A DNA stretch of 64,000 nucleotides from the NCBI GenBank assembly GCA_030828505.1, contig JAURCJ010000001.1, positions 62,001 through 126,000 on the forward strand, read 5' to 3'. Source of the stretch: Alphaproteobacteria bacterium (lineage in GTDB: Bacteria > Pseudomonadota > Alphaproteobacteria > TMED109). Below, in pieces: positions 8,263 through 60,955 of this stretch; position 1 is the stretch's first letter, and each line of letters starts with the position of its first letter. The position numbers were made by a program, and so were the translations under genes. Under the pieces are notes generated by a model. It had not been told where the DNA came from, did not search any database, and saw only the letters and a list, made by a program, of their open reading frames with translations.

Positions 8263-9324
8263 TTGAAAGAACATTTTATAAAAAAAATAAAATTACAAGG
8301 ACCAATTACAATTGCAGATTATATGTCTGATTGTTTGTTAGCTCCAAAATATGGTTACTATAATAGAAATAATATAATTGGCGCTAAAGGAGATTTCATT
8401 ACCTCTCCAGAAATAAGTCAAATATTTGGAGAACTTGTTGGGTTAGCGTTTGTAGACTTTTGGTATAAATGTAATAAACCTGATTCTCCAATATTAATCG
8501 ATATAGGAGGAGGTAGAGGAACTATGATGAAAGATGCTTTAAGAGCAATAAATAACGTAGATAAAATTCTTTCAAAAAAAATCCAACCTATTTTTATAGA
8601 AGCATCTTCAAAATTATCAGAAGAACAAAAGCTAAATGTCCCAAAGTCTGTATCATTTACCGATATTAATGATATACCAAAAGGATTTACCATGCTTTAT
8701 GCCAATGAATTTTTTGATGCACTTCCAATTCATCAATTTATTAAAGTAAATGATAAGTGGCATGAACGACTTATAGACATTGATTCAAAAAATGATCTGC
8801 GTTTTATTCATGATATAAATCCGTCCCCGTATGAATATATTTTACCAGAATATTTAAAAAATAATGTTATAATTGAATTTAGCCCTGCCATTGTTAATAT
8901 CACTACTTCAATAATTAAAAAAGTTTTGGAGCAAAGAGGAGCTTTTTTAATTATTGATTACGCACTAGATAAAAAAGATTTATATGGTTCTTTTCAAGCT
9001 GTTAAAGAGCATAAATATATAAACCCCCTTCTATATCCAGGCGAATGTGATCTATCCACAAAAGTAGATTTTGCACTTATAAAAAATATTGCAAAAGAAC
9101 TTAAGGCTTATGTTTACGGTCCAATAAAACAGAATATATTTTTAAAAAATTTAGGTATTGATATTAGATGTGAACAGCTAATAAAAAACAACCCTAATAA
9201 AAAAGAAGAAATATTAAATGATTATTATAGATTGATATCAAATGATAAAATGGGAAGTTTATTTGAAGCCATAATAATAACTTCTGAAGAAAAATTGCAG
9301 CCCGCAGGTTTCCAAAATGCATAA
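8263..9324 (+). CDS. MidA/NDUFAF7-family SAM-dependent methyltransferase
   Basis: This 353-residue protein starts at TTG (8263). The family N-terminus LQGPITIADYMSDCLLAPKYGYY is present, followed by GDFITSPEISQIFGELVG and the SAM motif ILIDIGGGRGTMMKDAL (about 78-94). ANEFFDALPIHQF is the second family hallmark. The mitochondrial homologue NDUFAF7 dimethylates an arginine of a complex I subunit; bacterial members are presumed protein-arginine methyltransferases. It overlaps pgeF by 8 nt. The lgt-midA-pgeF order is standard in alphaproteobacteria. Confidence 0.85.
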   Translation: MKEHFIKKIKLQGPITIADYMSDCLLAPKYGYYNRNNIIGAKGDFITSPEISQIFGELVGLAFVDFWYKCNKPDSPILIDIGGGRGTMMKDALRAINNVDKILSKKIQPIFIEASSKLSEEQKLNVPKSVSFTDINDIPKGFTMLYANEFFDALPIHQFIKVNDKWHERLIDIDSKNDLRFIHDINPSPYEYILPEYLKNNVIIEFSPAIVNITTSIIKKVLEQRGAFLIIDYALDKKDLYGSFQAVKEHKYINPLLYPGECDLSTKVDFALIKNIAKELKAYVYGPIKQNIFLKNLGIDIRCEQLIKNNPNKKEEILNDYYRLISNDKMGSLFEAIIITSEEKLQPAGFQNA

Positions 9325-57669: not shown

Positions 57670-58539
57670 TTGAGCTTTATATGGGTATTAAAGCTTAAAG
57701 TCTCTGAAAAAATTAGAGAAGAAATTGAAGCATCTCTGATTTCTTTAAATGCAACTGTTACATCTATAGAGGATGATAAGAATTCTCATTTACTTAAACC
57801 AGAACTATATACTACCTCAGCATTTTTTATTAAAAAGCCTAAAGTTGATCTAATTAAATTTATATTACTCAATTATGGTATTAAGTGCGATAAAATAAAT
57901 TTAAAAAAAATTAAGATTGAAGAAATATATAAAGCACATTCTAATACTCTGCAGCCAATAAATATTGGTTCTTTTAAATATTCAGAATCCAAAAACAAAA
58001 AAAATTTTTTAATTAAAAAAAATATAATTATTCCAGCAGGTCTAGGATTTGGAACAGGGCATCACGCTTCAACACAAGGAAACATCTATATGTTATGTAA
58101 GGTTTATTTAAAAAATAATATTACAAGAAAAAATATTATTGATATTGGCTGTGGATCAGGAATATTAGGAATTACTATGGCTAAATTATGGAAAAAGGAA
58201 ATTGAGTTAATCGATATAGATAAGCAATCAGTAAAAACATCAAAAGAAAATGCTAAATTAAATGATGTAAATACACTAATTAAAGTATACAAAGGTAATG
58301 GTTTGATTAAAACTAATAAACCAAACTATGATATTATTGTAATGAACATTCTAGCTAATACTATAATGAATAATATAAAATTAATTAAAAAAAAATTAAA
58401 TAAAAATGGAAGAGTTCTACTTTCGGGAATTCTTAAAAATCAAAAATTCATGATATTAAACAAATTACGTACAATGGGTTTAATATTAGAAGCAGAATAT
58501 ATTATTGATGGGTGGATAACTTTATTGATAAAAAAATAA
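57670..58539 (+). CDS. prmA: Ribosomal protein L11 methyltransferase
   Basis: This 289-residue enzyme methylates ribosomal protein L11. An N-terminal substrate domain (about 1-90) leads to PAGLGFGTGHHASTQGNIYML (about 125-145) and the SAM motif IIDIGCGSGILGITMAK, with MNILANTI in place of the usual catalytic loop. The start is TTG at 57670; no in-frame ATG precedes the conserved N-terminus. uvrD-prmA is a common alphaproteobacterial neighbourhood. Confidence 0.88.
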   Translation: MSFIWVLKLKVSEKIREEIEASLISLNATVTSIEDDKNSHLLKPELYTTSAFFIKKPKVDLIKFILLNYGIKCDKINLKKIKIEEIYKAHSNTLQPINIGSFKYSESKNKKNFLIKKNIIIPAGLGFGTGHHASTQGNIYMLCKVYLKNNITRKNIIDIGCGSGILGITMAKLWKKEIELIDIDKQSVKTSKENAKLNDVNTLIKVYKGNGLIKTNKPNYDIIVMNILANTIMNNIKLIKKKLNKNGRVLLSGILKNQKFMILNKLRTMGLILEAEYIIDGWITLLIKK

Positions 58540-58544
58540 ATAAT

Positions 58545-58787
58545 TTATATTAACCACCAATCTTTTGAATAGTTTTCAGATGAATAATTATTTTTATAAA
58601 ATACATTATTTTTATTTTTTAATTTTAAATTATCTATTAAAAAATTAATAAAAGATTTAAAATATTTACTTTGCAGTCTTTTTCCATAAATTATTTTTTC
58701 AATAGAATATTCAAATTTTTCAATTTTACTAATTTGTAAATTATTTGTTTTAAGAAAAGAAGATTTTTTTAGAACTTCATACTTCAT
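58545..58787 (-). CDS. Unrecognised 80-residue basic protein
   Basis: The frame begins at ATG 58787 behind AAGGA and encodes 80 residues rich in Lys, Asn, Tyr and Phe (MKYEVLKKSSFLKTNNLQ at the start, SKDWWLI at the end). There is no signal peptide, helix or motif I recognise. Codon and amino-acid use match the A+T-rich neighbourhood, so coding is not certain. It is convergent with prmA (5 nt apart) and lies directly downstream of the hairpin pair on the same strand. Confidence 0.4.
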   Translation of the reverse strand: MKYEVLKKSSFLKTNNLQISKIEKFEYSIEKIIYGKRLQSKYFKSFINFLIDNLKLKNKNNVFYKNNYSSENYSKDWWLI

Positions 58788-58811
58788 ATAAATTTATCCT
58801 TATTTTTTTTT

Positions 58812-58933
58812 ATGGCAGTTTGACTTTCATATGGGGAGGAGAATACTCAAACTGCCATTATTTCTTGAACTAATAATGATTTGAAATATTGATATAAAAT
58901 CACCAGGAGAGGAAAATCAAACCATCATTATTA
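58812..58933 (-). ncRNA. Tandem hairpin element with anti-Shine-Dalgarno-like loops
   Basis: Two inverted repeats lie in tandem. Hairpin A (58812-58858) has a perfect 12-bp stem, ATGGCAGTTTGA with TCAAACTGCCAT, and a 23-nt loop. Hairpin B (58871-58933) has a 10-bp stem, TAATAATGAT with ATCATTATTA, a 3-nt bulge and an inner TTGA/TCAA, with a 32-nt loop. Stems differ but loops are alike. On the minus strand the loops read CTCCTCCCC and CCTCTCCT, resembling cuckoo/CcsR sRNAs of alphaproteobacteria; on the plus strand they are GGA-rich. A TATAAT (minus strand, 58943-58938) lies 5 nt outside hairpin B. Strand and function are inferred; it could also be a 5' leader of the 80-residue ORF. Confidence 0.45.
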
Positions 58934-59161
58934 ATTAATTATATAAAATAATATTTATTTAATTAAAAACATTATTGTTACAACTAAGCTATGCAAAATA
59001 TGCATTCAAAACTTGTTTTTTTTTAATATAAGCATACCTGAGATAAAATATTTAATTATGCCCTCATTTATAGCAACTTAGATATGATATAAATACATGG
59101 CTAAAAAAAATAATTAACTTTATTTTGTAATAATAATAAGAAACCTTATATAAATTATATT
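58934..59161. other. A+T-rich gap before pepP without recognisable gene
   Basis: Apart from the candidate minus-strand -10 at 58938-58943, this 228-nt stretch has no reading frame of note, no tRNA-like fold and no clear terminator. It should hold the pepP promoter and leader (plus strand). A short near-palindromic TATGCAAAATATGCAT occurs near 58991-59006; its meaning is unknown. Confidence 0.5.
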
Positions 59162-60955
59162 ATGATAAATAAAACTTCTATAATTAAAAGAATAAAACTT
59201 ATTCAAAATTATTTATGCGATAATGATTTAGATGGCTTTATTCAACCAAGAGCAGATAGTTATCTAGGCGAATATGTCCCTAAAAGTGATGCAAGGTTAG
59301 AATGGATAAGTGGTTTTACTGGCTCTGCAGGTGTAATATTAGTTCTAAGAAAAAAGGTTATTTTATTTGTTGATAGTAGATATACAATCCAGGCAAAACA
59401 CGAAACTAAAAATACAGGAATTAAAATCATTCTTTCTTTTAAGCAATCTTTAGAAAAGTATATATTAAAAAATATAAAAAATTTTACAAAGATTGCTTTT
59501 GATCCATGGTTATATTCATACTCTTATATTCAAAATATAAAAAATATTGAAACCAAAATTAATAGTCAATTTGTACCATTGAAAAAAAACCCTATAGATT
59601 ACTTTTGGTCTATTAATAGAAATAGCCCCCCTAACTCTCCAATAAAAGTTCATCCCCTTAAATATGCAGGTATTAGTTCAAGTATAAAGATAAAAAAATT
59701 ATCTATATATTTAAAAAAATTAAAAGCTGAAGCCTATATTATTAATCAACCAGATGCTATTGCATGGTTATTAAATATTAGAGGTTTAGATCTAAAACAT
59801 ACACCAATAATTTTAACTCGAGCCATATTATTTAATAATGGAAATATATATTTATTTATAGATTCTACTCGTATTAATAAAAATGTTAGTAACCATTTTA
59901 AAAGTATTAAAATTAAAATTTTACCTGAAAAAAATATAGTTACTGAAATTAAAAAAATATCAAAAGAAAAAAATAAAATTCTTATAGATCCTAATTATGT
60001 ATCTTATGCATTAATCCAAGATATTAAAAAAAACACTCTGATAGAAACAAAATGTCCTATTGAACACTTAAAATCAATAAAAAATAAAACAGAAATTCAA
60101 GGAGCTATTTCTTGTCACATTAAAGATGGTATAGCTTTATCTAAATTTTTATTTTGGTTACATAAATATAAAACTTCACTTAACTCAGAATTACTTGCGG
60201 CAAATAAAATAGATAATTTAAGATCAACACAAGAAAATTTTATTAGCACCTCATTTGAAACTATTAGCGGCTTTGCTTCAAATGGAGCAATAGTTCACTA
60301 TCGTGTGACTGATAAAAGTAATAAAAAATTTAAAAACAATAATCTATATTTATGTGATAGTGGTGGTCAATATTTAGAAGGAACTACTGATGTGACTAGA
60401 ACAGTAGCAATTGGAAAGCCTACACAAAATATGAAGGACCATTTTACAACCGTTTTAAAGGGACATATAGCACTTGCAAGCGCTATATTTCCATATGGAA
60501 CGACAGGTAATGATTTAGACCTACTTACAAGATTACCACTATGGAAAGAAGATATGAATTATGGACATGGAACTGGTCATGGGGTAGGCTCATGTCTTAG
60601 TGTACATGAAGGACCACATAGAATCTCTAAGGGTTCTTTCATAAAACTAGAACCCGGTATGATAACTTCAAATGAACCAGGTTTTTATTTAACTAATAAA
60701 TATGGCATTAGAATTGAAAACCTTATGCTTGTTAAGAAAATTAAAAATAAAAATAATAAAAATATGTTATCATTCAAAACACTTACTCTAGCGCCAATTG
60801 ATGTTAACTTAATTAATTATAATTTATTAAATCATGAAGAAATTAATTGGTTAAATAGTTATCATGAAAAGGTATTAAAAAAAATATCAAATAGCTTAGA
60901 AAAAGATAATAAAAATTGGCTTAAAAATGTATGCGCTCCTTATTTAAAATCATAA
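59162..60955 (+). CDS. pepP: M24-family aminopeptidase P
   Basis: This 597-residue metallopeptidase removes N-terminal residues before proline. It has the three-domain build of long aminopeptidase P: two creatinase-like N-terminal domains (about 1-300) and a pita-bread catalytic domain. The dimetal ligands are visible in LYLCDSGGQYLEGTTDVTRT (two Asp), GHGTGHGVG (His), LEPGMITSNEPGFY (Glu) and YGIRIENLML (Glu). The start QNYLCDNDLDGFIQPRADSYLGEYVP is typical. Single gene, convergent with ligA. Confidence 0.92.
   Translation: MINKTSIIKRIKLIQNYLCDNDLDGFIQPRADSYLGEYVPKSDARLEWISGFTGSAGVILVLRKKVILFVDSRYTIQAKHETKNTGIKIILSFKQSLEKYILKNIKNFTKIAFDPWLYSYSYIQNIKNIETKINSQFVPLKKNPIDYFWSINRNSPPNSPIKVHPLKYAGISSSIKIKKLSIYLKKLKAEAYIINQPDAIAWLLNIRGLDLKHTPIILTRAILFNNGNIYLFIDSTRINKNVSNHFKSIKIKILPEKNIVTEIKKISKEKNKILIDPNYVSYALIQDIKKNTLIETKCPIEHLKSIKNKTEIQGAISCHIKDGIALSKFLFWLHKYKTSLNSELLAANKIDNLRSTQENFISTSFETISGFASNGAIVHYRVTDKSNKKFKNNNLYLCDSGGQYLEGTTDVTRTVAIGKPTQNMKDHFTTVLKGHIALASAIFPYGTTGNDLDLLTRLPLWKEDMNYGHGTGHGVGSCLSVHEGPHRISKGSFIKLEPGMITSNEPGFYLTNKYGIRIENLMLVKKIKNKNNKNMLSFKTLTLAPIDVNLINYNLLNHEEINWLNSYHEKVLKKISNSLEKDNKNWLKNVCAPYLKS

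Follow-up and report, generated by a model that had tools for sequence, protein, structure and literature searches.

Two adjacent inverted repeats at 58812-58933 of a 64,000-nucleotide stretch of alphaproteobacterial DNA (the window) raise the question of whether they encode a structured RNA and, if so, on which strand it lies and what its loops recognize. An earlier note on this DNA described paired but unlike stems that share a loop core, and proposed a likeness to the cuckoo/CcsR sRNAs on the minus strand or, alternatively, a CsrA/RsmA-type RNA on the plus strand. Comparison with related genomes indicates that the repeats almost certainly form a real minus-strand structured RNA that heads a small gene. 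That description had missed the small open reading frame (ORF) downstream, the promoter elements upstream and a one-hairpin version in other genera.

Structure of the hairpin region

Hairpin B (58812-58858, minus strand) has a perfect 12-bp stem, AUGGCAGUUUGA/UCAAACUGCCAU (equivalent to ATGGCAGTTTGA/TCAAACTGCCAT), which closes a 23-nt loop containing a C-rich, anti-Shine-Dalgarno-like motif at 58833-58841 (minus strand) that reads CUCCUCCCC (equivalent to CTCCTCCCC). Hairpin A (about 58868-58933, minus strand) is built on the stem UAAUAAUGAUGGUUUGA/UCAAAUCAUUAUUA, with about 14-17 pairs when G-U wobbles on the minus strand are included, and is paired in seven of seven two-hairpin genomes. Its loop holds a small inner hairpin (about 58890-58902, minus strand) and a C-rich motif at 58906-58912 (minus strand), which is CCUCUCC in the window. 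The sequence agrees with the account of paired, unlike stems sharing a loop core, and on the plus strand both motifs are, as had been noted, G-rich (GGGGAGGA and CAGGAGAGGA) with TCAAAC next to them.

Scanning the whole window for perfect stems (11 bp or more, loop no longer than 36 nt) returned eight, of which hairpin B alone has at least five G/C per arm, and five control windows drawn from a Markov model contained no stem with at least five G/C in an arm. The stem of hairpin B is above chance expectation. Elsewhere in the window, at 8908-8957, a 353-aa gene contains an AT-rich inverted repeat of 16 bp whose loop is C/U-rich on the minus strand; this repeat was judged ordinary. The minus-strand fold of the hairpin region has a z-score of -4.07, with none of 200 shuffles equally stable, compared to -1.45 for the plus strand. 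A terminator scan of this region found no terminator, and no U-run occurs 3' of any stem on either strand; together these results exclude a terminator remnant.

Distribution among relatives

The element is present in nine genomes, which represent four genera of a single TMED109-like family of marine Alphaproteobacteria, and in all nine it is found immediately 5' of a small ORF and divergent from pepP. Six of the seven genomes of the genus carry the arrangement of hairpins and small ORF. By DNA search, four additional genomes of the genus were seen to carry the element (79-84% identity), and a search with the small protein added G002, the sixth genome of the genus, and G007 from another genus, both of which have two hairpins upstream. 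At the pepP locus of G009 and G011, which belong to two more genera, the element is shorter and consists of one hairpin, which retains the CCUCCC loop on an entirely different stem (AGGUGGCUUA/UAAGCCACCU).

One covariance model (R1) retrieves exactly the seven two-hairpin genomes, and another (R2), built from the nine B-type hairpins, recovers a single locus from each of these nine genomes and gives no other convincing copy across 28 genomes of the family. Among the weak R2 matches, L076-L078 are ordinary terminator-like hairpins that do not have C-rich loops, and L069 contains no convincing hairpin. In the wider class, neither R1 over 289 sampled genomes nor a small-protein profile (A8) over 385 sampled genomes gave a match beyond the genus, in samples drawn evenly and, for R1, with strict filters that weak relatives could escape. 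Among the named records of the genome scan are MAGs, Alphaproteobacteria bacterium TMED109 being one example. The element is most likely a taxon-restricted leader RNA.

Covariation, loop conservation and strand

Among the nine B-type hairpins, 94% of cells are paired, and changes on both sides are seen in 7 of 12 pairs. Their covariation score is 0.405, compared to 0.186 when shuffled (0/500 shuffles), and pairing drops to 21-51% when the partner is shifted by 1-3 columns. Much of this signal comes from the stems of G009 and G011, so it reflects few independent events. Support from the two-hairpin alignment points the same way but is weaker (5 pairs, 5/500). Non-Watson-Crick cells read on the minus strand include 17 G-U against 3 A-C, which identifies the minus strand as the one that keeps the pairing.

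While the stems diverge, CCUCCC is invariant in the B-type loops of all nine genomes. Five of the seven A loops contain CCUCCCC; the window has CCUCUCC and G006 has CCUUCCC, and these two degenerate versions differ by C-to-U changes only, so that pairing with a G-rich partner would be retained through wobble. The shared core is CCUCCC(C), and the 5' flank varies (UCUCCUCCCC, UUUCCUCCCC). These compensatory changes, the invariant CCUCCC and the minus-sense wobbles bear out the original idea of a structured RNA with fixed loops and diverging stems that resembles anti-Shine-Dalgarno hairpins when read on the minus strand, and pairing, for which a covariance search in relatives had been suggested, proved to be conserved in nine genomes of four genera.

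The small ORF and its probable promoter region

Along the minus strand, hairpin A is followed by hairpin B, an AAGGA Shine-Dalgarno and an 80-aa ORF. The ORF (MKYEVLKK...YSKDWWLI; 58545-58787, minus strand), which has homologues in nine genomes, starts about 20-30 nt 3' of hairpin B, with the Shine-Dalgarno-like AAGGA at 58797-58801 (minus strand). This unit is convergent with prmA (57670-58539) and divergent from the M24 aminopeptidase gene pepP (59162-60955). In G009 and G011 (loci L035 and L036), prmA is absent between uvrD and the small ORF, which is therefore convergent with uvrD.

Within the genus, pairwise dN/dS of the small ORF is about 0.26-0.62, and variation at third codon positions equals or exceeds that at other positions in nearly all pairs, consistent with translation into a mildly constrained protein. 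Residues M1, Y3, E4, G35, Y64, S74, K75, W77 and W78 are invariant in the nine homologues. The ORF of G009 and G011 is 100 aa in length and has MKYE at its start and SKDWW or SKKWW at its end, and a profile comparison supports the homology of the G009 protein (E 2.4e-7). Searches of Pfam, NCBIfam, PHROGs and PDB revealed no significant relative or known domain, and an AlphaFold2 model, a single long helix with a pLDDT of 66, is too weak to interpret. The ORF may represent a previously unrecognised small protein family, which the proposed function of the element, if true, would link to this RNA.

Upstream of the hairpins, sequence evidence points to a probable -10 box, TATAAT (58938-58943, minus strand), and to a palindromic ATGCATATTTTGCAT box (58991-59005, minus strand) as a probable regulator site. 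TATAAT starts exactly 62 nt past the start of this ATGCA box in six genomes of two genera. In seven genomes from four genera, an ATGCA..TGCAT-type palindrome precedes the first C-rich loop by 93-98 nt. G005 and G001 have a variant box, ATGTGTTTTTTGCAT, and the spacing from box to first loop is identical for one- and two-hairpin versions. This layout suggests that transcription begins at the foot of hairpin A, near 58931. A GRTATG(C) half-site is also found about 33 nt upstream of the palindromic box (box loci L003, L005, L015, L016, L035 and L036). In most of the genus a second palindrome, GTAACATTAATGTTAC, occurs just downstream of the first box (58966-58981, minus strand); it is seen in the relatives G001, G003, G005 and G006 and is degenerate in the window's own genome.

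Proposed function of the loops

The preferred reading, for which the chances appear about even, is that the loops pair in trans with Shine-Dalgarno sequences. A minus-strand transcript would start near 58931, under a promoter composed of TATAAT and the upstream palindromic ATGCA..TGCAT-type regulator site, and would carry hairpins A and B followed by the mRNA of the 80-aa protein. The stems would be interchangeable scaffolds that display a pyrimidine loop with the consensus YUCCUCCCC, an anti-Shine-Dalgarno mimic, and the loops would serve as redundant seeds in trans for a small number of mRNAs whose Shine-Dalgarno sequences (GGGAGGA) are unusually rich in G. Such pairing would block ribosome binding along the lines of alpha-r14/NfeR1, CcsR and mycobacterial 6C/B11, here without Hfq, and the co-transcribed small protein is a possible partner of the RNA. 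Three points favour action in trans: the ribosome-binding site of the small ORF offers no complement to the invariant part of the loop, the loops stay while the stems change, and the closest RNAs of like design work in this way (PMC10746234; PMC7143759; PMC12395582). A point against it is that a free sRNA would require processing from the mRNA, since no terminator belongs to the hairpins themselves. If true, this reading would add a new family of anti-Shine-Dalgarno-loop RNAs, from uncultured ocean bacteria in whose genomes no Hfq was found. Furthermore, it would indicate that a design of variable stem and fixed C-rich loop is workable in AT-rich genomes, and that it serves as an mRNA leader in addition to stand-alone or 3'-derived sRNAs.

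The main rival, doubtful but with a substantial share of the probability, is a cis-acting leader that controls only the small ORF, whether through autoregulatory sites for its protein, another RNA-binding protein on the pyrimidine loops, or loop-Shine-Dalgarno pairing inside the leader. The element has never been found apart from the small ORF, whose start is about 20-30 nt past hairpin B, and the loops of G002, G006 and G007 contain UUUCCU, the complement of the ORF's own AGGAAA. However, this complementarity does not hold in G003, G009 and G011, and the invariant CUCCC has no complement in the ribosome-binding site of the small ORF. In addition, the small protein has no known RNA-binding domain, and the model of its structure has low confidence (pLDDT 66).

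A rather unlikely reading is a dual-function mRNA leader in a marine lineage without Hfq. Its tandem anti-Shine-Dalgarno 5' end would act in trans on metabolic and transport genes with high translation, and its coding part would make a small RNA-binding partner that replaces Hfq or CcaF1. Of the 28 family genomes, 10 have an Hfq match, all of them element-free, and no match was detected in the nine element-bearing genomes, one of which (G006) has 96% completeness; several of the assemblies are incomplete. At the genus level, Hfq was found only in the element-free genera g5, g7 and g8 and was not found in the element genera g1, g2, g4 and g6. This anticorrelation is confounded, with shared ancestry as an alternative to a causal link between Hfq and the element.

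It is improbable that the structures only stabilise the 5' end of the mRNA, or act at the level of DNA as a cruciform or operator, with loops that have no specific partner. Their position, probably at the very start of the transcript, would suit such a role, but between genera it is the loop sequence that is kept and not the stem, and a DNA operator would preserve the sequence of its stem and show no preference for G-U over A-C.

Relation to known RNAs

C-rich loops are a feature of the CcsR/cuckoo RNAs, and the proposed likeness to them stands as far as the anti-Shine-Dalgarno-like minus-strand loops, the diverging stems and the nearby small protein gene are concerned. CcsR1-4/cuckoo in Rhodobacter and relatives are tied to a small protein gene and have a reported effect on C1 metabolism (PMC10253847). 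CcsR follows ccaF1, a DUF1127 gene, is expressed from an RpoHI/RpoHII promoter and interacts with Hfq (PMC10253847; PMC8307010). In the element, on the other hand, the hairpins precede an unrelated ORF without a DUF1127 domain, rather than following and being co-transcribed with a DUF1127 gene as at the CIN1 locus. No DUF1127 gene was found in the 28 family genomes, no Hfq match was obtained in the element-bearing ones, and the loop core CCUCCC(C) is only partly like CCUCCUCCC. Strict membership as a processed, Hfq-binding, DUF1127-linked stress sRNA is very improbable. Searches of Rfam 15 with the window and four homologous loci gave no relevant match, either at the gathering threshold or at E<=10, and none to cuckoo, for which Rfam may hold no model; SNORD36 and n00280 (inside uvrD) were irrelevant or chance matches.

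The overall design is shared with alpha-r14/NfeR1, CcsR and 6C/B11, although membership of cuckoo/CcsR is not supported by the tested features. The alpha-r14/NfeR1 (SmelC397) and SmelA075/SmelA099 sRNAs of Rhizobiales have hypervariable stems and conserved, redundant anti-Shine-Dalgarno loops, and a conserved motif marks the sigma70-type promoter of alpha-r14-type sRNAs (PMC7143759; PMC10746234; PMC3927594). NfeR1 pairs through its identical loops, and its predicted targets are mostly transport proteins (PMC7143759; PMC10746234). The element resembles this group in its variable stems, fixed loops, promoter motif and predicted transport targets. However, alpha-r14/NfeR1 RNAs consist of three or four CCUCCUCCC hairpins encoded by stand-alone genes, often in several copies, whereas the element is a single-copy leader of a small ORF with one or two CCUCCC(C) hairpins, whose loops have only CCUCC in common with alpha-r14/NfeR1. 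In mycobacteria, which have no Hfq, the C-rich loops of 6C/B11 pair with G tracts at ribosome-binding sites (PMC12395582). These actinobacterial RNAs differ from the element in their longer C runs (about six or more, compared to a longest run of four to six, usually four) and in the placement of the active loop in a terminator; the element has no Rfam match.

A plus-strand CsrA/RsmA-type RNA in the pepP leader, the alternative first raised alongside cuckoo, is hardly credible. The plus strand does read GGGGAGGA and CAGGAGAGGA, which provide the GGA loops of CsrA/RsmA-binding sRNAs, but csrA was found in 0 of the 28 family genomes, the plus-strand fold is poorer, the wobbles favour the minus strand, and the TATAAT box would direct minus-strand transcription. 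A chance repeat or terminator remnant, the outcome named at the outset as refuting a structured RNA, has nothing in its favour and a negligible probability, given the conservation in nine genomes, the covariation and the lack of a U-run or terminator-like site.

Predicted targets of trans pairing

A Shine-Dalgarno-like 4-mer was found in 70 of 264 sampled genes (about a quarter). Across all sampled start regions, loop pairing is no better than that of shuffled loops, which indicates no global effect, and GGGGAGGA is not enriched genome-wide. In six assemblies, no match to the exact 16S 3' end, GGATCACCTCCT, was found. Among the start regions there are two outliers: that of a PQQ-dependent dehydrogenase (AAAAGGGAGGAGAGTTTATG), with a predicted duplex of -20.2 kcal/mol with loop B, and that of a sodium:solute (SSF) symporter (GGGGGAGGATTATAAAATG), at -18.4 kcal/mol, with the third-ranked region at -13.1 kcal/mol. 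These two genes are predicted targets and, together with the conserved promoter box, offer testable predictions.

GGGAGG is rare in start regions, with 2 of 278 sampled genes in G000 and 1 of 152 in G003. The syntenic orthologues of the dehydrogenase and symporter in G003 keep GGGAGGA, and their pairing with G003's own loops is weaker, at -12.7 to -15.4 kcal/mol. Among 74 orthologue pairs, the dehydrogenase has -14.0 in both genomes and the next pair -6.2; conservation of the targets could be checked in these two genomes only. In G006 and G007 the gene was not at its syntenic place, or this place lies past contig ends. Strong Shine-Dalgarno sequences of highly expressed or highly translated genes are conserved for other reasons anyway. 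In other genomes, perfect or strong GGGGAGGA start sites belong to different genes, which in G007 appear, by eye, to encode transporter binding proteins. The PQQ-dependent dehydrogenase genes at L111:3260 (minus strand) and L180:11132, from two species and with 96% protein identity, each have an exceptionally strong Shine-Dalgarno sequence, GGGAGGAGAG.
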